NCBI GenBank assembly: GCA_903842345.1
Contig: CAIMLR010000020.1
Coordinates: 1-64,000 of the forward strand
Reading direction: 5' to 3'
Source of the DNA: an uncultured Myxococcales bacterium
Lineage (GTDB): Bacteria > Myxococcota_A > UBA9042
Length of the DNA stretch: 64,000 bases
The position numbers and the translations under genes were made by a program. Positions 32,364-42,811 of the stretch are shown here, piece after piece. Each line of letters begins with the position of its first letter. Position 1 is the stretch's first letter. Below the pieces are notes generated by a model. It saw only the letters and a list, made by a program, of their open reading frames with translations, was not told the origin of the DNA and ran no database searches.

Positions 32364-33929
32364 TTACGGGGCCTGGAAGAGGACGCCGCAGCGGTAGTAG
32401 GTCGACGAGACGTCGGCCGCCTGGCTACCGGCGGTGAGCTTGATGTACAGCTTGGCGCCGTCGGCCGGGGTCGTCAGGTCCTTGATGTAGACGCCGTCGA
32501 CGGGCTCAACCTGGCTGCCGTTGGCGATGGCCGTGGTGCCGGCGTCGCTGAACAGCTCCGTCTTGAAGTTGCGCAGGCCAGAACCGGACGACTGCGCGCC
32601 GCAGAACACGTACATCTTGCCGCCGCCCACGCCGGTCGGGACCGTGCTGACCCACCAGTCGGTGTCCGCGCCGCTCTTGAGCAGGTCGCCTTCAAAGTAG
32701 CCGCGCTGGTTGCCGCTGTCGGCCTTGAACGTGACAACTTCCGCGCCCGCAGCCGCGTCGTTGCCGGCGTCGTTGGCTTCCACCGGGTTGCTGCCGCCGG
32801 CGATCGCGTCAAAGAAGTAGAACTCGGCGGCCGTCTCAGCGCCGGTCGCACGCGTCACAAACAGGTAGTAGCCCACGCCGAACGGCAGCGGCGGCGCGAT
32901 GCCCGTGCTCTTGCCGTCGCCCAGATCCGCCAGCGCAATCATCGCCGTCGGGGTCGCTTCCGACGCGATCCACGCCGCGCCCATCAGCGCCGTCGAACCG
33001 TTGCCGTCGACGCCGCCCTTGGTCAGGTCAAAGTAGACAACGGAGCGACCCGACGTGATCGTCATGTCAGCCGGAACGTTGAAGTGATAGACGTCAACGT
33101 CGACCGGGCCCTTGAACGTGCCGATGAGCGTCGGGGTGACGTACTTGCCCTGCGTGTTCTTCTCCCACATGATTTCAGTGGCTTCCTTGATCGTGTCGCC
33201 GACTTCTTTCTCAAGCGTGATGCCCGGGTCGGAATCCGTGAACGTCGCGACGCCGATGTTGTAGTCGACGTTGCCCTTGTCCTTCGGGTCCGCGCAGGAA
33301 ACGCCGGTCTTCTCCGGGTGCGCGCCCAGCCACGTCCAGCATTCTTCAACCCGGACGTAGTAGGTGCCGTCAGCCGGCAGGTACGTGAACAGTTCGCTGT
33401 CGTTGTTCAGGCGGCTCGCCGGGTCGTCGTCAAACGCGATCTGCTTCTTGTCCGGACCGTACAGCGTCAGGATCGTGTCCAGCGTGTCCGGGTCAAACGC
33501 CGTCGTCAGCGACTGCGCCTGCAGGTAGATGTAGATGAGGTCGCCCTTCTTGCCGGTGAAGCTGTAGTAGTCCACGTCGCCCGTCGGGTCGAGCGTGTCC
33601 GAAGCCGGATTCTGCGGCGCAGCGGTCGACGCCACGGTCAGCGCGGTCGCGGTCTCAATCGTGTTGTCCTTGTCCACGGCAACCTGGACGTCAACCTTCT
33701 TGATGTCCTTCGCGACATCGGCCGTTGCGTCCGTACCGCCGCTCGTCGCGTCGGTGCCACCGGCGGTATCCGCCAGCGTGTCCGTCGTCGTTGTATCGGT
33801 CGTCGTCGCGCCGCCGTCACCGGTGGTGCTGCTGCCGCAGGCGCTGATCGACGCCGCGAGGGCGAGACCAGCGGTGAGAAGGGTCAAGGCGCGTCGCACG
33901 CCGTAGAAACTGGGGTTCAAGCGATTCAT
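32364..33929 (-). CDS. PPC-domain lipoprotein
   Basis: A 521-residue lipoprotein (lipobox ISAC) with a Thr/Asp/Gly-rich linker of about 50 residues. It contains at least one pre-peptidase C-terminal (PPC) beta-sandwich: DVDYYSFTGKKGDLIYIYLQ, LTLYGPDKKQIAFDDD, TYYVRVEE. A later stretch (VDVYHFNVPADMTITSG, then GADTDWWVSTV) looks like further copies. PPC domains usually accompany secreted proteases or adhesins; no protease domain is present here. I prefer the second ATG (33929), which lies 7 bases after AGGA, over the ATG at 33935. A strong hairpin follows the stop. Confidence 0.75.
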   Translation of the reverse strand: MNRLNPSFYGVRRALTLLTAGLALAASISACGSSTTGDGGATTTDTTTTDTLADTAGGTDATSGGTDATADVAKDIKKVDVQVAVDKDNTIETATALTVASTAAPQNPASDTLDPTGDVDYYSFTGKKGDLIYIYLQAQSLTTAFDPDTLDTILTLYGPDKKQIAFDDDPASRLNNDSELFTYLPADGTYYVRVEECWTWLGAHPEKTGVSCADPKDKGNVDYNIGVATFTDSDPGITLEKEVGDTIKEATEIMWEKNTQGKYVTPTLIGTFKGPVDVDVYHFNVPADMTITSGRSVVYFDLTKGGVDGNGSTALMGAAWIASEATPTAMIALADLGDGKSTGIAPPLPFGVGYYLFVTRATGAETAAEFYFFDAIAGGSNPVEANDAGNDAAAGAEVVTFKADSGNQRGYFEGDLLKSGADTDWWVSTVPTGVGGGKMYVFCGAQSSGSGLRNFKTELFSDAGTTAIANGSQVEPVDGVYIKDLTTPADGAKLYIKLTAGSQAADVSSTYYRCGVLFQAP

Positions 33930-34013
33930 GGGCATGTCCTATGGCAAAAGGAATTCGGTTGACGGTCCACAGGGCGGACCGCGCGAAAGACTAACAGAAC
34001 TGTCAGGGGGTTG

Positions 34014-35585
34014 TCACGGAGAAGAAAGCGTGCCGTCGAGCGTTTTGAGCGCTGCCATCACGCAATTTTTGTGTTTCATCGTCGACTCGACGGCGTGGGC
34101 GTCCGCGAGCGCCTGCTTGCGCGCCGCGCCAATTGGCAGGCCTTCGTCAAACAGGCCAATGTCCTGCGCGGATTTGGCGTCGCGGCCGCAGCGATCGTCC
34201 AGCACTTGCGCGAGGCAGCGCTGGCCCAGCGGCTGGCCGATCAGAAACTCGACGACATTGTTCGACGTGAGCAGCTCCGGCTGCTTGGTCAGCACGCCGC
34301 AGTCAAAGTTGCTGGGACGGCTGAGCGCGTTGTTCAGCCAGCGCGCCAGAAACAGGTCCGTCGTCGCGATGTCGGCGAACTTGTAGGCGCCCTTGCCGTC
34401 AGCCGGCACAAAAAGCGCGGATTGGAACGTCTTTTCGCACACATGCTTGCGGCGCTCTTCCGGCGTGCCAGCCACGCCCGCGTCCACCGCCGTCGTGCCC
34501 CAGCGCGCGTCGATCGCCTTCGCGCAGCTTTCCAGATCAAAATGCGGCTCGCGGAAACCCTTGGTTTCCACCTGCACGCGCAGCATCCGGTCCACCATGT
34601 CCAGCGCTTCCGTTTGCGTCCAGCCGAGGTTCTCCAGTTCTTTTTTCAGCCGCACGCCGATCAGCGTTTCGTAGACGTTGCTGCGGCTGGCGATAATGCC
34701 CGACGCCGGATCCTGCGATTTCTGGTGGAAATCAGCCATTGTCAGCACGTCGCGGTAGGTCGAGAGGTACGGGAACGTGCACTGCACGCCGAACTTGGAC
34801 TGCTCGTCCAGGCCATAGCGCTTGAGGAAGAGCTTGAACTGCGCGCGGGTCACGTCGTCCTTGTAGCTCCGCGCGACAAACGCCTCCGTGGTCTTGCATT
34901 CCAGCGGCTGGATTTCCAGGCGGGCGTCAACCGGCGTGAACCCGTAATCGGCGTCCAGCACCGGCGGCCGTGCCAGCAGCACGATCTGCGCGGCGGGCAC
35001 CAGCGCGGACAGTTCCCGGAGCGCCGCAATCACTTTGCCGCGGCTGACGAGATCAACTTCCTCAATGCCGTCCGCCAGCACCAGCAGGCGGCCTTCCGCG
35101 AGCTGCGGTGTCAATTGCGCTGCGTCCACGCCCGCTTCCTTCGCGATAACGGCGATGACCGGATTGCCCGGCGCCGTCACAGCGGCGACTTCCTTGAGGT
35201 CGACCGAAAACACCGGCAGCACGGCGCACAAGTCCGCACGCACGGACTCCGCCAACCGCGTTTTGCCCAAGCCACCGCGCGCCAGCACGGACATCGTCTT
35301 GACTTCACCCGCTTCAAGCGCCGCGATAACACGCGATTCTGGAAGCAAATTTTGTGACTGCCCCTGCCAATCGTGGACGTACAGCACCGGCGGATTGTAC
35401 GCGCCGCTGGACAGGTCGGACGCCTGCCGCGCCGCGCGCTCTTCGCACACTTTCAAGTACGTGGAGTTTCCGCGGTCCGCCAGGCTCTTGGCGATTTGGC
35501 TCTGGCCTCCGCCACAGGCGGTCAGTGCCACCAGCGCGCAAGTGCTCGGAATAGTCTGCAAAAGAGTCGACAGGCGAAAATTCAC
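34014..35585 (-). CDS. predicted lipoprotein with NACHT-like P-loop NTPase domain
   Basis: A 523-residue protein. The N-terminus looks like a lipoprotein signal: hydrophobic CALVALTAC with lipobox LTA-C24 followed by GGGQ. Residues about 95-250 form a STAND/NACHT-like NTPase: Walker A RGGLGKTRL (Lys 108), an extended acidic Walker B LLVLADGIEEVD (Asp 172), then a sensor-like IVLLARPP. The remainder (about 260-520) is helical with several cysteines and no family I recognise. A GTG start at 35585 is chosen because AGGAG lies 6 bases upstream and it opens the signal; the frame continues upstream in antisense-like sequence. An ATP-dependent domain on an exported lipoprotein is contradictory, so either the anchor is uncleaved with the domain in the cytoplasm, or the domain no longer hydrolyses ATP. 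It lies downstream of pxpA on the same strand (74-base gap). Confidence 0.7.
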   Translation of the reverse strand: MNFRLSTLLQTIPSTCALVALTACGGGQSQIAKSLADRGNSTYLKVCEERAARQASDLSSGAYNPPVLYVHDWQGQSQNLLPESRVIAALEAGEVKTMSVLARGGLGKTRLAESVRADLCAVLPVFSVDLKEVAAVTAPGNPVIAVIAKEAGVDAAQLTPQLAEGRLLVLADGIEEVDLVSRGKVIAALRELSALVPAAQIVLLARPPVLDADYGFTPVDARLEIQPLECKTTEAFVARSYKDDVTRAQFKLFLKRYGLDEQSKFGVQCTFPYLSTYRDVLTMADFHQKSQDPASGIIASRSNVYETLIGVRLKKELENLGWTQTEALDMVDRMLRVQVETKGFREPHFDLESCAKAIDARWGTTAVDAGVAGTPEERRKHVCEKTFQSALFVPADGKGAYKFADIATTDLFLARWLNNALSRPSNFDCGVLTKQPELLTSNNVVEFLIGQPLGQRCLAQVLDDRCGRDAKSAQDIGLFDEGLPIGAARKQALADAHAVESTMKHKNCVMAALKTLDGTLSSP

Positions 35586-35659
35586 GGGAGTCTCCTGATG
35601 GCGCAAGAACGGCTGCGTTTGTAACCCATACAACTGGGGCGCGCAAACCTCGTGGCGGA

Positions 35660-36400
35660 CTACCAGTCGGGCGCGCGCACCTGCCAGCCGGCACCTTCCA
35701 GCCGCGTTCGCAGCCGTGTCGCCAGCGCCAGCGCCTCGGGCGTGTCGCCGTGCACGCACAGGGAATCGATGCGCGTCGGCAGCCACCCGCCACGCGCCAG
35801 CGGCAACGCCTGCCGCTGCAGCATCTCCAGCGCGCGATCCGCCACGTGCTCGGGATCGTGCAGCACCGCGCCGGGCTTGTCGCGCGGGGTCAGCAGGCCA
35901 TCTTCGCCATAGCTGCGATCCGCGAAGGCCTCCGTCCGGTGCGGGATCGCCATCGCCTCCGCCGCGGCGTGCATCGCCGTTTGTGCCATCACCAGCCAAC
36001 CCAAACCCGCCGCGCGCGTCGCCTCGCCGACCGTCCGGGCCATGTCCGCGTTTTCCGCCACTTGATTGGCCAGCGCGCCATGGAGTTTCACGTAGCGCAC
36101 GGGCCATTCCAGCAAGTGGGCGATGGCCGTCAGCGCCGCCACCTGGCTTTGGAGTTCCGCGCGCAAGTCTGCGAGCGGCATGGCGATTCGCCGTCGGCCA
36201 AAATGCTGCCGATCGGGCCAGCCCGGATGCGCGCCCACGACGACGTGCCGTTGCTTGGCCACCCGCAGTGTTTCGTGCATCGTCGCCGCGTCGCCCGCAT
36301 GCCCGCCGCACGCCACGTTGGCTGACGTCACAACCGCCAGCAGCGCCGCGTCAAACGGCATCCCTTCGCCCAGATCCGCATTCAGGTCGACTCGCGCCAT
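35660..36400 (-). CDS. pxpA: 5-oxoprolinase subunit A (LamB/YcsF family)
   Basis: A 246-residue protein of the LamB/YcsF family, beginning VDLNADLGEGMPFD and containing SANVACGGHAGD, VGAHPGWPDR and VKLHGALANQ. PxpA acts with PxpB and PxpC to cleave 5-oxoproline (pyroglutamate) to glutamate using ATP. The other two subunits lie close by but are transcribed in the opposite direction, with two cyclic-nucleotide-binding proteins between. The length and all family motifs are intact. Confidence 0.92.
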   Translation of the reverse strand: MARVDLNADLGEGMPFDAALLAVVTSANVACGGHAGDAATMHETLRVAKQRHVVVGAHPGWPDRQHFGRRRIAMPLADLRAELQSQVAALTAIAHLLEWPVRYVKLHGALANQVAENADMARTVGEATRAAGLGWLVMAQTAMHAAAEAMAIPHRTEAFADRSYGEDGLLTPRDKPGAVLHDPEHVADRALEMLQRQALPLARGGWLPTRIDSLCVHGDTPEALALATRLRTRLEGAGWQVRAPDW

Positions 36401-36493: not shown

Positions 36494-37039
36494 ATGGCGG
36501 ATTTGCCCCTGACAATGGTGCTGCGGAAGATCCCGGCTTTTGGCCAGTTGACGGACCGCGACCTCCTGACGCTGGCCGGTTCACTGCGCCGTCGGCGTCT
36601 GGATCTCGGAGCCCAGCTGTTTGAACAGGGTGATCCGGGCGGGACGATGCACCTCGTGACCCAAGGTGAGCTGTCCGTGCGCTGGCAAGAAGGCGTGTCG
36701 CAGGATGAACTGGAAGTGGCGCGCGTTGGACCGGGCGAGTTTGTCGGTGAAATGGCGCTCCTGGACTTGGGGCCGCGCTCAGCGAGCGTCGTGGCGCGCC
36801 GCGATTGCGTACTCTACGAATTGGCGGTCGAGGACCTGATGCTGCTGGAGGAGACCGCGCCGGCGGCGGCATCGGCGGTGCTGGCGTCTGTGACCGCGCT
36901 GCTGACCGACCGGATTCGCCAGGTGAACGGCCAGATTGAGGCCCTGCTGGGCGGACACGCGCCGGTGGAGGAAACGACGGCGAGCGCGACGGATTCTGGC
37001 GTCTTTGGCCGACTGTGGTCGCGGCTCAGCAAAAGCTAG
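36494..37039 (+). CDS. cyclic nucleotide-binding domain protein
   Basis: A 181-residue protein. Residues about 5-125 form a Crp-type cNMP-binding beta-roll (FEQGDPGGTMHLVTQGELSV, then GEFVGEMALLDLGPRSASVVA, the phosphate-binding cassette). A helical region and a Ser/Thr-rich tail follow. It has no HTH, so it is not a Crp-type activator. The cassette keeps GEMALLDxxPRSAS with Glu and Arg in place, consistent with cyclic nucleotide binding. A second such protein follows after 9 bases, and the pair precedes pxpBC. Confidence 0.85.
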   Translation: MADLPLTMVLRKIPAFGQLTDRDLLTLAGSLRRRRLDLGAQLFEQGDPGGTMHLVTQGELSVRWQEGVSQDELEVARVGPGEFVGEMALLDLGPRSASVVARRDCVLYELAVEDLMLLEETAPAAASAVLASVTALLTDRIRQVNGQIEALLGGHAPVEETTASATDSGVFGRLWSRLSKS

Positions 37040-37048
37040 GAGCATGGA

Positions 37049-37597
37049 ATGAACGAACGCCTGGATCCGCAAACGATGGAGCGCCTGCGCGCGATCGCTG
37101 AGACACGGCGGTTTCCGGCCGAGACGTTCCTGTGCACGCAGGGCCAGCCCGGTGATTGCTGTTACCTCATTTTGTCGGGCGAAGTGGAAGTGCGGCGGGA
37201 CGTCGGCACGGAGATCCTGAGCGTGGCGCGCCTGGGGCCGGGCGCGATGGTCGGGCAGTTGGCGCTGGTGGACGGTTCACCGCGCGCGGCGTCGGTTGTC
37301 GTGACGGCGCCGGTCACGGCGTTGGTGCTGACGCGAGAGGTCTTTGAGACGCTGCGTTCCGCGCACAGCACGCTTGCGCTGCATTTCCAGCGGCAGGTGG
37401 CGTTGGCGGGCATCCGGCAGCTGCGGCACGCGACCGCGCACTTGGCGCGCCTGCAATTGCAGCGGGCCCACCAACCGGGCGGCACGCCGCTGCTGCGCCG
37501 CGATCGCCGCGTGGCGACAATCACGATTGCAGGGTTGTCTGAGCTCTCCGTGGATCTGCAGGCGCTGGCGCGCGAGCTGGAGACCGTCGACCCCTGA
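37049..37597 (+). CDS. cyclic nucleotide-binding domain protein
   Basis: A 182-residue cNMP-binding-domain protein related to the previous gene. The beta-roll is at about 8-120 (CTQGQPGDCCYLILSGEVEV, GAMVGQLALVDGSPRAASVV). In the phosphate cassette the usual Glu is Gln (GQLAL), which may weaken ligand binding, while the Arg is present. The C-terminal 60 residues are helical with no recognisable HTH. AGGAG lies 6 bases before the ATG. It may form a heterodimer with its neighbour. Confidence 0.85.
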   Translation: MNERLDPQTMERLRAIAETRRFPAETFLCTQGQPGDCCYLILSGEVEVRRDVGTEILSVARLGPGAMVGQLALVDGSPRAASVVVTAPVTALVLTREVFETLRSAHSTLALHFQRQVALAGIRQLRHATAHLARLQLQRAHQPGGTPLLRRDRRVATITIAGLSELSVDLQALARELETVDP

Positions 37598-39413: not shown

Positions 39414-40085
39414 ATGACGGAACAGATACCTTTTGCCGCGGTAGAATTCGCCGCCAATCCAGAGCCGCGGTGCGCGTGCGTCCTGCTGCTGGACACGTCC
39501 GCGTCCATGTCCGGCGCGCGCATCAGTGAACTGCAGGAAGGTCTGGCGGTGCTCAAGAATGAGCTGAGCCAGGATCTGCTGGCGCGCAAGCGGGTGGAAC
39601 TCGCCGTCGTGACGTTTGGCGGGTCCGTGCGCATGCTCAGCGAATTCATGACGGTCGATCAGTTTGAGCCGCCCATCCTGCACGCCGACGGCCTGACGCC
39701 GTTGGGCGCCGCAGTGACGACGGGCTTGGAGCTCGTGCGCAATCGCAAGCGCGTCTACCGGCAAAACGGCATCGCGTGCTACCGGCCGTGGGTGTTTTTG
39801 CTGACGGACGGCGAGCCTTCCGACCCGTGGCAGCCCGCAGCCGCAGCCGTGCGCCATGCCGAAACCGCGCGGGAATCGGCGTTTTTCGCGGTCGGCGTGG
39901 GCGAGGCCAACCTGGACATCCTCGGCAAGCTGAGCGTGCGCCAACCGCTGATGCTGCGCGGCCTGCAGTTCCGCCAGATGTTCCAGTGGTTGTCGACGTC
40001 GCTGAAATCCGTTTCTCATTCTGGCGTTTCAGATGAGTTGTCGCTGCAGAATCCGACGGCGCCGGACGGCTGGGCGAAACTGTAG
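39414..40085 (+). CDS. TerY-like von Willebrand factor A domain protein
   Basis: A 223-residue cytoplasmic vWA protein with a complete MIDAS: DTSASMSG, the Thr in GLTPLGAAV and Asp in LLTDGEPSD. Nearly the whole protein is the vWA fold. Size and motifs match TerY-type proteins, which act in TerY-P triads with a PP2C phosphatase and a protein kinase. The phosphatase gene starts directly at its stop and the kinase follows, so the triad is complete and in the usual order. Such systems are linked to tellurite, metal or phage-type stress responses; no other ter genes are in the window. Confidence 0.87.
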   Translation: MTEQIPFAAVEFAANPEPRCACVLLLDTSASMSGARISELQEGLAVLKNELSQDLLARKRVELAVVTFGGSVRMLSEFMTVDQFEPPILHADGLTPLGAAVTTGLELVRNRKRVYRQNGIACYRPWVFLLTDGEPSDPWQPAAAAVRHAETARESAFFAVGVGEANLDILGKLSVRQPLMLRGLQFRQMFQWLSTSLKSVSHSGVSDELSLQNPTAPDGWAKL

Positions 40086-40874
40086 GTGACGGCCATCGCC
40101 AGCGACTGGAAAACGGTCTCGGCCGCAGTAGCCGGACCCAAAAAAGGCGAGCGTGGCTGCCAGGATGCCGTCGCGGTGCGGCTCGTGCGCGGTGGCGGGC
40201 GGCAGGCGCTGATCCTTGCGCTGGCGGACGGTGCGGGCTCAGCGTCCCATGGCGGTGACGCGGCGCGGCTCATCGTGCGGACGTTTGCGTCCCTGGCGAC
40301 GGGTCGGCTGCGACACCGAATGGAGCGCGGCGATCGGCCCGTGCTTTGGGATCTGGACGACATGGCGGCGCTCTTCCAGCGCGCCCGCGAGCGCGTGACG
40401 GACGCGGCGCGGACGCACCACCACGCGCTGCGCGAGTGGGGCAGTACGGGGCTGTTGGCGGTCGTGACCGACGAGGCGACCGTGCTGGCTCAGATGGGCG
40501 ATGGCGCGATGTGCCTGCGCCACACCGGGCAATGGACCTGTCCAATTTGGCCTGACCTGGACGGCTACGTGAACGTCACGACCTTTGTGACCCACGGCCA
40601 CGCACCGTTGCGCACGCACGTGGGCGGGCCGACCGAGGCGATCCTGCTGTTCAGCGATGGCCTGCAGGCGCTGGCGCTCGACTATCCCGCGGGCCGGCCA
40701 CACGTGCCGTTTTGCCACGGAGTGGTCGCGGAACTGGCGAAATCGGCCGATCACCGCAAGCTGCAGCGGGATTTGACGGCGTGGCTGGCGTCGGATGCGA
40801 TTCGCGCGCGCTCAGACGATGACATCAGCCTGGCGATGGCGATCCGCGACCCGACGGCGAGGCTGCACGCGTGA
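40086..40874 (+). CDS. PP2C-family protein phosphatase of a TerY-P triad
   Basis: A 262-residue PP2C-type Ser/Thr phosphatase. Metal-binding and core motifs are visible: KGERGCQDAVAV, LALADGAGSASHGGDAAR, VLAQMGDGAM and SDDDISLAMAIRD near the end. The GTG start follows immediately on the vWA gene's stop codon, with no gap. It would dephosphorylate targets of the kinase encoded next. No membrane segments, so it is cytoplasmic. Confidence 0.88.
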   Translation: MTAIASDWKTVSAAVAGPKKGERGCQDAVAVRLVRGGGRQALILALADGAGSASHGGDAARLIVRTFASLATGRLRHRMERGDRPVLWDLDDMAALFQRARERVTDAARTHHHALREWGSTGLLAVVTDEATVLAQMGDGAMCLRHTGQWTCPIWPDLDGYVNVTTFVTHGHAPLRTHVGGPTEAILLFSDGLQALALDYPAGRPHVPFCHGVVAELAKSADHRKLQRDLTAWLASDAIRARSDDDISLAMAIRDPTARLHA

Positions 40875-42811
40875 AAGTCTACGGCGTGGACCGCAACCCA
40901 ATCGAACTCGGCGCCGTGCTTGGCCGCGGCGGTGAAGGCGTTGTGTACACGCGCCTCGGCCGCGAGGGCGACGCCTGCAAGATCTACACGCGCTCGCCGA
41001 CGGCAGCGCGCACGGCCAAGCTGACGTGGATGGTCAGCCGTCTGCAGCAGCACCCGGATCTGGCGCAATGGTGCACGTGGCCGCAGGAACTGCTGTTTGA
41101 CGCGCAGCAGGAGTGCATCGGCTTCGCCATGGCGCGGCTGGAGCAGCTGCGGCCGATTCACGAGGTCTACCAGCCCGACCAGCGCAAGTCCGTGCTGCCA
41201 TCCGCCGGCTGGGATTTTCTGGTGCGCGTGGCGACGAATTGCGCGCGCATGTTTGAGACGCTGCACAAGTACGACGTGATCGTCGGCGACGTGAACGAGC
41301 GCAACATCTTCGTCGATGCCGACGCGACCGTGCACCTCGTGGACTGCGATTCCTTCCAGATCACCGATGGCGACCAGTTCTTTGGCACCGGCGTCGGCGT
41401 TGTCGACTACACGCCGCCGGAAATGCAGGGCAAGGATTTTCGCGTGGTCCCGCGCACTGTGGAGCACGACCGTTTTGGCCTCGCCGTCATCGCTTTCAAG
41501 CTGCTGTTGATGGGCCGCCACCCGTTCAGCGGCGGTGCGTCGGGCGATCTGCATCAGGCGATCGCCAACAAGGACTGGGACTATCCGCAGTTGGCGCAGC
41601 GGCTGCGGCATCTGCTGCCGTGGTCGGTGATCGGAGCACCGGTGCGCGCGGCGTTTGTCAGCGCGTTCACGGAGGAACAGCGGCCGTCCGCGGCGGTGTG
41701 GGTCGAGCGGCTGACGGCGTTTGAAGCGACCCTCCAGCCGTGTCGGCGGGAGCCGCTGCACAAGGTCCCGAACGGCTTGGGCAATTGCCCGTGGTGCACG
41801 ATCGAGCAGGTCGCGGGCTATGCCTACTTCTCGCGCCCGCAGACGCAGTTCCACTCCAACTGGCAAGGTCCGGACGCGCTGCTGGCGCCGCTGCTCGCTG
41901 AGCTGCAGGAGCTGCCCGCCCCGCGCCAGCCCGAGGAATGGCAAGCGCCACAGGGCATGGAGGCGGCGATCGCGACGGCGCGGGCGATGCTCCAGGCTGA
42001 ACGTCCGCCGGATTTGGTGAGCTGGTACCTGGCGCTGGGCGGCGGTCTTGTGGCGTTTGGCGGTGTGGCGATGGCGCTGTTCCAGCCGACCCGCGGGGTT
42101 GTCGTCGGCGGCGCGGGCGTGCTGGCGCTCGTGGCGTCGCGCTGGCTGTCGGTGCGGCGGCAGCTGCCGTGGCATCGGGTGAATTTGGAAATCGAAAATA
42201 AAATCAAATTGATGCGCGAAATTGAAGCGGAGTGGAAAGGCGAGGCGCTGCGGTTTCGCGATCAGGATCGGCGGCTGCGGGCGTGGCTGGCGGACCTGCG
42301 CGGCCAGGTGATGGCGGTGGGCGCGCAACGCCAGCGGGAGATCGACAAGCTGGAGGGCGACGAAGTTTCCGCGGGTCTGCGCGCCGGGCTGATGCGGTAC
42401 CCGCTTGCGTCCGTGTCGATTCCCAACGTGCCGGTCGAGAAGAAACGCGCGCTGGCCATTCGCGGCGTGCTGACGGCGGCGGACCTTGATCGCGGCAAGC
42501 TGGCCGTCATTCCCGGCTTGGCCGATGCGCAGATCGACGCGCTGATCGCCTGGCGCCGCAGCGTTGAAGGGCAGCTGACCGGCACGCGCGCGCAGGAGCC
42601 GAATCCGGCGCAGTTGGGCGCCATCGACAGCAACTTCCAGCACTTGCGGGATAACCTGCTGGGGGAGATGCGCGGCGCATTGGGCACGCTGCGCGATGCC
42701 GGAAGTCTCGCCGATGGCCGGATGGCGGAGTTGCTGGCGCAGGGGCGGTCGGCCGGTCTGGCGCTGCAGGAGCGCGTGGATGCAGTGCGACGCGAGTTCA
42801 TCGAGCACTGA
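40871..42811 (+). CDS. TerY-P type protein kinase with membrane hairpin and HhH motif
   Basis: A 646-residue kinase. The glycine-rich loop LGRGGEGVVYT (17-27), Lys 37 in ACKIYT, a catalytic loop GDVNERNIF (Asp 140, Asn 145) and a metal motif VDCDSF (Asp 158/160) replace the canonical HRD/DFG forms, as is usual for TerY-P kinases. A CPWC half zinc-knuckle lies near 302-305. Two hydrophobic helices follow at about 382-425, then a coiled coil and a helix-hairpin-helix-like segment (LAVIPGLADAQIDALIAW, about 541-558). The protein is probably anchored in the inner membrane with the kinase in the cytoplasm. GTG start by GTGA overlap with the phosphatase. Confidence 0.85.
   Translation: MKVYGVDRNPIELGAVLGRGGEGVVYTRLGREGDACKIYTRSPTAARTAKLTWMVSRLQQHPDLAQWCTWPQELLFDAQQECIGFAMARLEQLRPIHEVYQPDQRKSVLPSAGWDFLVRVATNCARMFETLHKYDVIVGDVNERNIFVDADATVHLVDCDSFQITDGDQFFGTGVGVVDYTPPEMQGKDFRVVPRTVEHDRFGLAVIAFKLLLMGRHPFSGGASGDLHQAIANKDWDYPQLAQRLRHLLPWSVIGAPVRAAFVSAFTEEQRPSAAVWVERLTAFEATLQPCRREPLHKVPNGLGNCPWCTIEQVAGYAYFSRPQTQFHSNWQGPDALLAPLLAELQELPAPRQPEEWQAPQGMEAAIATARAMLQAERPPDLVSWYLALGGGLVAFGGVAMALFQPTRGVVVGGAGVLALVASRWLSVRRQLPWHRVNLEIENKIKLMREIEAEWKGEALRFRDQDRRLRAWLADLRGQVMAVGAQRQREIDKLEGDEVSAGLRAGLMRYPLASVSIPNVPVEKKRALAIRGVLTAADLDRGKLAVIPGLADAQIDALIAWRRSVEGQLTGTRAQEPNPAQLGAIDSNFQHLRDNLLGEMRGALGTLRDAGSLADGRMAELLAQGRSAGLALQERVDAVRREFIEH

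Follow-up and report, generated by a model that had tools for sequence, protein, structure and literature searches.

A multi-copy family of predicted lipoproteins with a NACHT-like NTPase module in an uncultured Myxococcales bacterium and its relatives

In textbook accounts, NACHT/STAND switches are cytoplasmic machines and the bacterial envelope is free of ATP. Torsins, which are AAA+ ATPases of the ER lumen, have conserved disulfides and reach that oxidising compartment by means of a signal peptide. As exported P-loop ATPases of such a compartment they resemble the family that we propose here, by analogy and not by membership, given that torsins are AAA+ and the family is STAND, and that the eukaryotic ER imports ATP. 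The bNACHT proteins are described as acting in phage defence from inside the cell (PMC12169576). A periplasmic NACHT has been predicted, by topology only, in a DGR-diversified target protein of Thiohalocapsa PB-PSB1; this domain would face the periplasm like the family described below, but it lies beside C-type-lectin domains, and the accessible part of the source describes no lipobox family, cysteine set or NTT link for it (PMC10907252). In the open-access literature we found no paper that joins NACHT with a lipobox and the periplasm, and no periplasmic P-loop lipoprotein. In E. coli, steady-state periplasmic ATP is measurable, and the route of ATP across the inner membrane is unknown (reviewed in PMC7432876). 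An earlier reading of the present gene from its sequence only (the sequence-only reading) had held that the periplasm has no ATP, which is too absolute in view of the E. coli measurements and of an operon in relatives that encodes a protein with the ATP/ADP-translocase fold. Proteins of this latter kind, NTT-HEAT-cNBD proteins with an adjoining gene for a further cyclic-nucleotide-binding domain (cNBD), have already been described (Major, Embley, Williams 2017, PMC5381601), and the characterised NTTs of parasites import nucleotides (PMC5381601).

The window, by which we mean the whole 64,000-nucleotide stretch of DNA that was analysed, carries the following features.

34014-35585, minus strand: NACHT-like lipoprotein gene, 523 aa, GTG start, stop codon at 34014-34016
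35514-35585, minus strand: predicted lipoprotein signal peptide, residues 1-24, with lipobox LTAC at 35514-35525 ending in Cys24; lipobox Cys in 82/83 homologues
35259-35276, minus strand: Walker A, GGLGKT, residues 104-109; K108 in 82/82 complete homologues (82/83 overall)
35058-35084, minus strand: Walker B, LVLADGIEE, residues 168-176; D172 in 82/82 (83/83 overall), E176 in 81/82
34965-34970, minus strand: NACHT-type sensor, R206-P207; R206 in 82/82, P207 in 80/82
35660-36400, minus strand: upstream LamB/YcsF gene (5-oxoprolinase subunit A-like; pxpA), after a gap of 74 bases; synteny in G001, G002 and G006
32364-33935, minus strand: downstream lipoprotein with a PPC domain; synteny kept in G001 and G002
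36494-37039, plus strand: single-domain cNBD protein, divergent neighbour
37049-37597, plus strand: second cNBD protein

The gene had been proposed at 34014-35585 with no strand given; it is borne out, on the minus strand, and an AGGAGA lies 5 bases 5' of its GTG start. A longer in-frame ORF, 34014-36311, was rejected as the gene because it overlaps pxpA on the same strand and the homologues start at the signal sequence. Chance occurrence is excluded because the same genome encodes four further paralogues and the motifs are kept across 83 aligned homologues, and misassembly or MAG chimerism was rejected as the source of the signal, which is present in 22 genomes of the family-level clade to which this bacterium belongs (its own family). 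Plasmid and phage collections gave no match, and there is therefore no sign of a mobile-element gene. With the window protein alone as query, the closest public contigs belonged only to close lake Myxococcales MAGs, with proteins 80-83% identical.

All 22 sampled own-family genomes, the present one included, hold copies of the NACHT lipoprotein gene, with 2-6 per genome. The present genome (G000) has five including the window copy, the other four being 44-26% identical to the window protein. Outside the own family, in the sampled class and phylum, full-length members were found only in G026 (two), G051 (one) and G272, the last a distant homologue that is split over two contigs. The homologue set comprised 83 near-full aligned sequences, of which the 82 complete ones were used for residue conservation and structure modelling; mean column identity of the alignment is 31%. 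The tree divides the family into four or five old paralogue groups at least, every one with a conserved neighbourhood of its own, so the copies appear to have been retained rather than recently multiplied. One copy (L091, G012:C67:45100-47400) aligns only to about residue 387, is without Lys108 and is probably a decaying or frame-broken paralogue. Separately, the second paralogue is preceded on its strand, at a distance of 21 bases, by the gene of a SurA-like periplasmic PPIase (L002:403-1449).

We next turn to the NTPase site, where the sequence-only reading had described a Walker A with Lys108 and a Walker B with trailing acidic residues and Asp172; both are present exactly in that form and are nearly or fully invariant in the homologues. 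An AlphaFold2 model built from the 82-sequence alignment (pLDDT 91.8, pTM 0.87) contains the NBD, helical domain and winged helix of a NACHT module, and its fold matches in the PDB are headed by NOD2 (E 3e-10), NLRC4, NLRP3 and NAIP5, ahead of all else; among the 50 matches listed, 49 are NLR proteins or NLRP-containing complexes with a probability of 1.00. Global TM values of these matches are moderate, at about 0.3-0.53 (best TMq 0.53, to NAIP5-NLRC4), as expected of rearranged domains. When the model is compared structurally with NLR NACHT modules, its C-terminal half, previously noted as a cysteine-containing helical region, coincides with their helical and winged-helix part; the cysteines of this half proved to be near-invariant. 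By sequence alone the NACHT link is weaker than by fold: a Pfam scan of the window protein gave no PF05729 (NACHT) match and an NB-ARC score of 12 bits against a cut-off of 23.5, PF05729 was reached at E<=1 by 29/82 members (best E 2.1e-7), and every member scanned singly against it stayed below 26.7 bits. The family profile does match cytosolic Myxococcota NACHT proteins. An NCBIfam scan gave nothing useful for the family, a profile search of PDB sequences returned only P-loop scraps (ArsA, plant NLR), PADLOC gave only weak P-loop matches, and in a viral structure library the model matched one NLR-like phage protein followed by generic AAA+ proteins. Together, the fold matches to NLRs and the profile matches to cytosolic NACHT proteins uphold the description of the protein as NACHT-like, albeit with the window protein alone below Pfam cut-offs, and we regard the NACHT-module fold as well supported by the predicted structure.

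The family has in common with NLR NACHT modules (NOD2, NLRC4, NLRP3, NAIP5) and with the bNACHT STAND NTPases the Walker A, the acidic-tailed Walker B, the RP sensor and the module fold. It differs from them in being exported and lipidated, as predicted, and in having ten near-invariant cysteines and core-genome synteny; beyond the NACHT module, neither an effector domain nor a sensor, of the repeat kind or any other, was recognised. The cytoplasmic location, effector and sensor domains and defence association that define the immune proteins were not found for the family.

The evidence for export begins with the lipobox LTAC followed by GGG that had been pointed out at the N-terminus, which indeed occupies residues 21-24 of the window protein. 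The signal segment in 82/83 homologues is a hydrophobic stretch that ends in the lipobox Cys, with G or S next in most and a median length of 24; a positive n-region, a hydrophobic core and a lipobox Cys near residue 20-35, as in SPase II lipoproteins, are likewise found in 82/83. Mean charge is +1.5 in the n-region and -0.25 after the Cys (83 homologues), with the n-region the more positive in 62/83, equal in 18 and less positive in 3. The sole homologue without the lipobox Cys, in G051, has an ordinary type I-like signal peptide instead, and the distant homologue from G272 combines a basic N-terminus with a single membrane helix in an N-in/C-out arrangement. These are three types of N-terminus with one predicted side of the membrane, an agreement that a cytoplasmic NTPase would hardly account for. 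Homologues that lack a signal had been named as the observation that would speak against export; among the 83 aligned homologues and the distant G272 relative none without any export sequence was found, and the exported reading withstood this check. We conclude that export of the NACHT-like NTPase is well supported by these predicted signals, and that all homologues would export it. Tat export was considered less likely, and Sec correspondingly more likely, because RR occurs in the n-region of only 6/83 homologues.

The mature protein has ten conserved cysteines, as follows.

34062-35447, minus strand: span of the ten conserved mature Cys, each in 81-83 of 83 homologues
35445-35447, minus strand: C47, conserved mature Cys
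35226-35228, minus strand: C120, conserved mature Cys
34896-34898, minus strand: C230, conserved mature Cys; absent together with C269 in L088 and L090
34779-34781, minus strand: C269, conserved mature Cys; absent together with C230 in L088 and L090
34524-34526, minus strand: C354, conserved mature Cys
34437-34439, minus strand: C383, conserved mature Cys
34299-34301, minus strand: C429, conserved mature Cys
34215-34217, minus strand: C457, conserved mature Cys
34188-34190, minus strand: C466, conserved mature Cys
34062-34064, minus strand: C508, conserved mature Cys

Across 82 homologues, conserved columns account for 815/823 mature Cys (99.0%); for Trp, the runner-up among the residue types, the figure is 15.5%. 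There are 10 mature Cys in 73/83 homologues, 11 in 7, 8 in 2 and 6 in one truncated copy, and in the five paralogues of the present genome every mature Cys is common to all, with none extra. The two members with eight are without exactly C230 and C269, a joint absence as expected of a disulfide pair; it may reflect a single event, the two (L088, L090) being close neighbours in a region of the tree with poor support. The cytosolic NACHT proteins that the family profile matches within this phylum have the Walker motifs in common with the family and are without the ten-Cys set. The present genome encodes DsbA-family proteins and a VKOR. On these grounds the mature NACHT protein would be disulfide-bonded and extracytoplasmic. 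As a separate observation, the genome has 25 PF01323 (DsbA) matches, an unusually large number, several of them in tandem within single long ORFs. In the G272 homologue (L118/L220, L221) the equivalents of C47 and C120 are kept, C269 is absent and the C-terminal half has two extra Cys.

In two relatives outside the own family the NACHT gene lies in an operon. The order in G051 is NTT-HEAT-cNBD, a 7-base gap, NACHT, an ATGA overlap and cNBD, and in G026 it is NTT-HEAT-cNBD, an ATGA overlap, NACHT, a second ATGA overlap and cNBD. NTT, HEAT and cNBD with a further cNBD gene beside them is the layout already described (PMC5381601); what sets G026 and G051 apart is the exported NACHT gene inserted precisely between these two genes. 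The NTT gene is also found in other Myxococcota (G082, G106, G201), where no NACHT gene accompanies it and a cNBD gene mostly comes directly after it, and the NACHT gene is therefore placed inside a known operon. The NTT domain scores 27.0 bits against PF03219 (cut-off 21) in G051 and is above the cut-off in 10/22 own-family genomes, the copy of the present genome being below it. The NTT family profile matches the Chlamydia pneumoniae ATP/ADP translocator NTT1 (CpNTT1) at E 7.4e-8, and a model of the own-genome NTT domain (pLDDT 79.8) has AtNTT1 and CpNTT1 as its top PDB fold matches (E 2e-10, TM 0.72).

An NTT orthologue is present in 20/22 own-family genomes, the two without it being incomplete. 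Among 31 other relatives it is found in both carriers of the NACHT family and in two genomes without the NACHT lipoprotein (G039, G043), which gives a Fisher p of 0.013 for co-occurrence outside the own family, from few events. In the own family, G009, G010, G011, G013, G014, G015, G017 and G020 have the NTT gene either within an envelope cluster or as the convergent neighbour of a NACHT copy; within the own genus it adjoins no NACHT copy, and the single NTT-HEAT-cNBD gene of the present genome is at G000:C28. In G026 the operon is preceded by envelope-gene homologues; they lie on another contig end, where the N-terminal half of this NTT gene is also located. These three homologues, a barrel-like protein with a weak match to NCBIfam ImpL63, a lipoprotein and a VolA/Pla-1-like lipoprotein that resembles hydrolases, also flank own-family NACHT members. 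In two families this conserved three-gene envelope set (L126:7988-13404; L203:1617-6000) occurs in linkage with NACHT and NTT genes. The own-genome NTT-HEAT-cNBD gene is followed by that of a Methyltransf_32 protein, with overlapping ends (L204:5397-9559), a pair conserved in many own-family genomes.

Our working hypothesis, to which we give a probability of roughly 0.6, is that the lipid-anchored, Sec-exported and disulfide-bonded NACHT protein is a conformational switch under nucleotide control, at work in the periplasm or on the cell surface. The chain would be exported unfolded by Sec, acylated on Cys24 as the lipobox predicts, and oxidised by the DsbA/VKOR system of the genome to about five disulfides. 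Its P-loop would bind ATP or ADP present outside the cytoplasm, and nucleotide binding and hydrolysis would toggle the module on its encounter with a ligand from the envelope or from outside, with the signal passing to partner envelope proteins encoded in the cluster. Where the operon layout exists, the NTT-HEAT-cNBD operon mate would supply or exchange the nucleotide, and the cNBD domains would sense cyclic nucleotide inside the cell. The use of ATP, the direction of the NTT and the role of the NACHT lipoprotein are what we infer; nucleotide for the exported NACHT would probably be supplied or recycled by the NTT. More tentatively, at somewhat under even odds, we propose an extracytoplasmic ATP-powered NLR-like switch to which a dedicated, cyclic-nucleotide-regulated ATP/ADP translocase delivers ATP across the inner membrane. 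NACHT is known from the cytoplasm, and the family, as predicted lipoproteins, would be NACHT in a new compartment. A family-wide, multi-copy NACHT that is predicted to be exported and disulfide-bonded, with an intact NTPase site, strains one of the two textbook statements, and the operon of NTT-HEAT-cNBD, NACHT and cNBD is a small gene set for testing extracytoplasmic ATP use and supply that gives the uncharacterised NTT-HEAT-cNBD family its first candidate physiological partner. An ATP-fuelled envelope switch with its own translocase, if true, would be a categorically new envelope machine and define an ATP route into the bacterial periplasm.

We also considered that the exported NACHT could be a receptor for ATP or other nucleotides that lysed neighbours or prey release, instead of running on ATP of the cell's own supply, with the NTT scavenging these nucleotides by import. 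The export and motif evidence fits this as it fits a switch, importing NTTs are characterised in parasites (PMC5381601), and the envelope cluster with its outer-membrane-barrel-like protein and VolA/Pla-1-like lipoprotein hydrolase is in keeping with it; we nevertheless judge it unlikely, because in STAND/NACHT modules the nucleotide usually serves as power or timer and the signal is a different ligand, and because the 2-6 paralogues, diverged and set in separate neighbourhoods, suggest ligands that differ between them and a nucleotide cycle that they share. The exported fold could also be nucleotide-free in vivo, its P-loop holding phosphate, another anion or a partner and its residues serving structure, which would suit the low ATP expected outside the cytoplasm and a slightly unusual P-loop, RGGxGK[ST]. 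The Walker A Lys, Walker B Asp/Glu and sensor Arg are, however, kept in 81-82/82 against the 31% column mean, and this together with the operon linkage to the NTT makes such degenerate use improbable.

The sequence-only reading had left a choice between an uncleaved anchor with the NTPase inside the cell and a domain repurposed outside, and the data favour the latter. A membrane-tethered cytosolic sensor would agree with the cytosolic location of the characterised NLR and bNACHT proteins and with the presence of ATP in the cytoplasm, but it is opposed by the charge distribution around the signal (62/83 against 3), the lipobox in 82/83 with G or S after it in most of 82, the other export signals in G051 and G272, and the near-invariant Cys set, so that we see hardly any chance for it. 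Just as remote is a transferable effector that is delivered to other cells, like the SitA toxins of Myxococcus outer-membrane exchange, and draws on the ATP of the recipient: myxobacteria exchange lipoproteins (PMC5562445) and this protein is predicted to be one, yet it has a single conserved domain throughout with no toxin domain, polymorphic C-terminus or small adjacent immunity gene, is encoded in every own-family genome with fixed synteny, and would have its disulfides reduced in a recipient cytoplasm.

In the window itself, the cNBD pair at 36494-37597 clusters by BLAST with a fused double-cNBD protein of G026:C16 (L092:8445-9704), whose gene is directly upstream of a NACHT family member. 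Further along, at 39414-42811 on the plus strand, three consecutive genes look, on inspection by eye, like a TerY-P-like triad: a protein of von Willebrand A type, a phosphatase of PP2C type and a protein kinase that has an extra C-terminal region. In G008 (L135), too, a family member is flanked by a similar VWA/kinase set.
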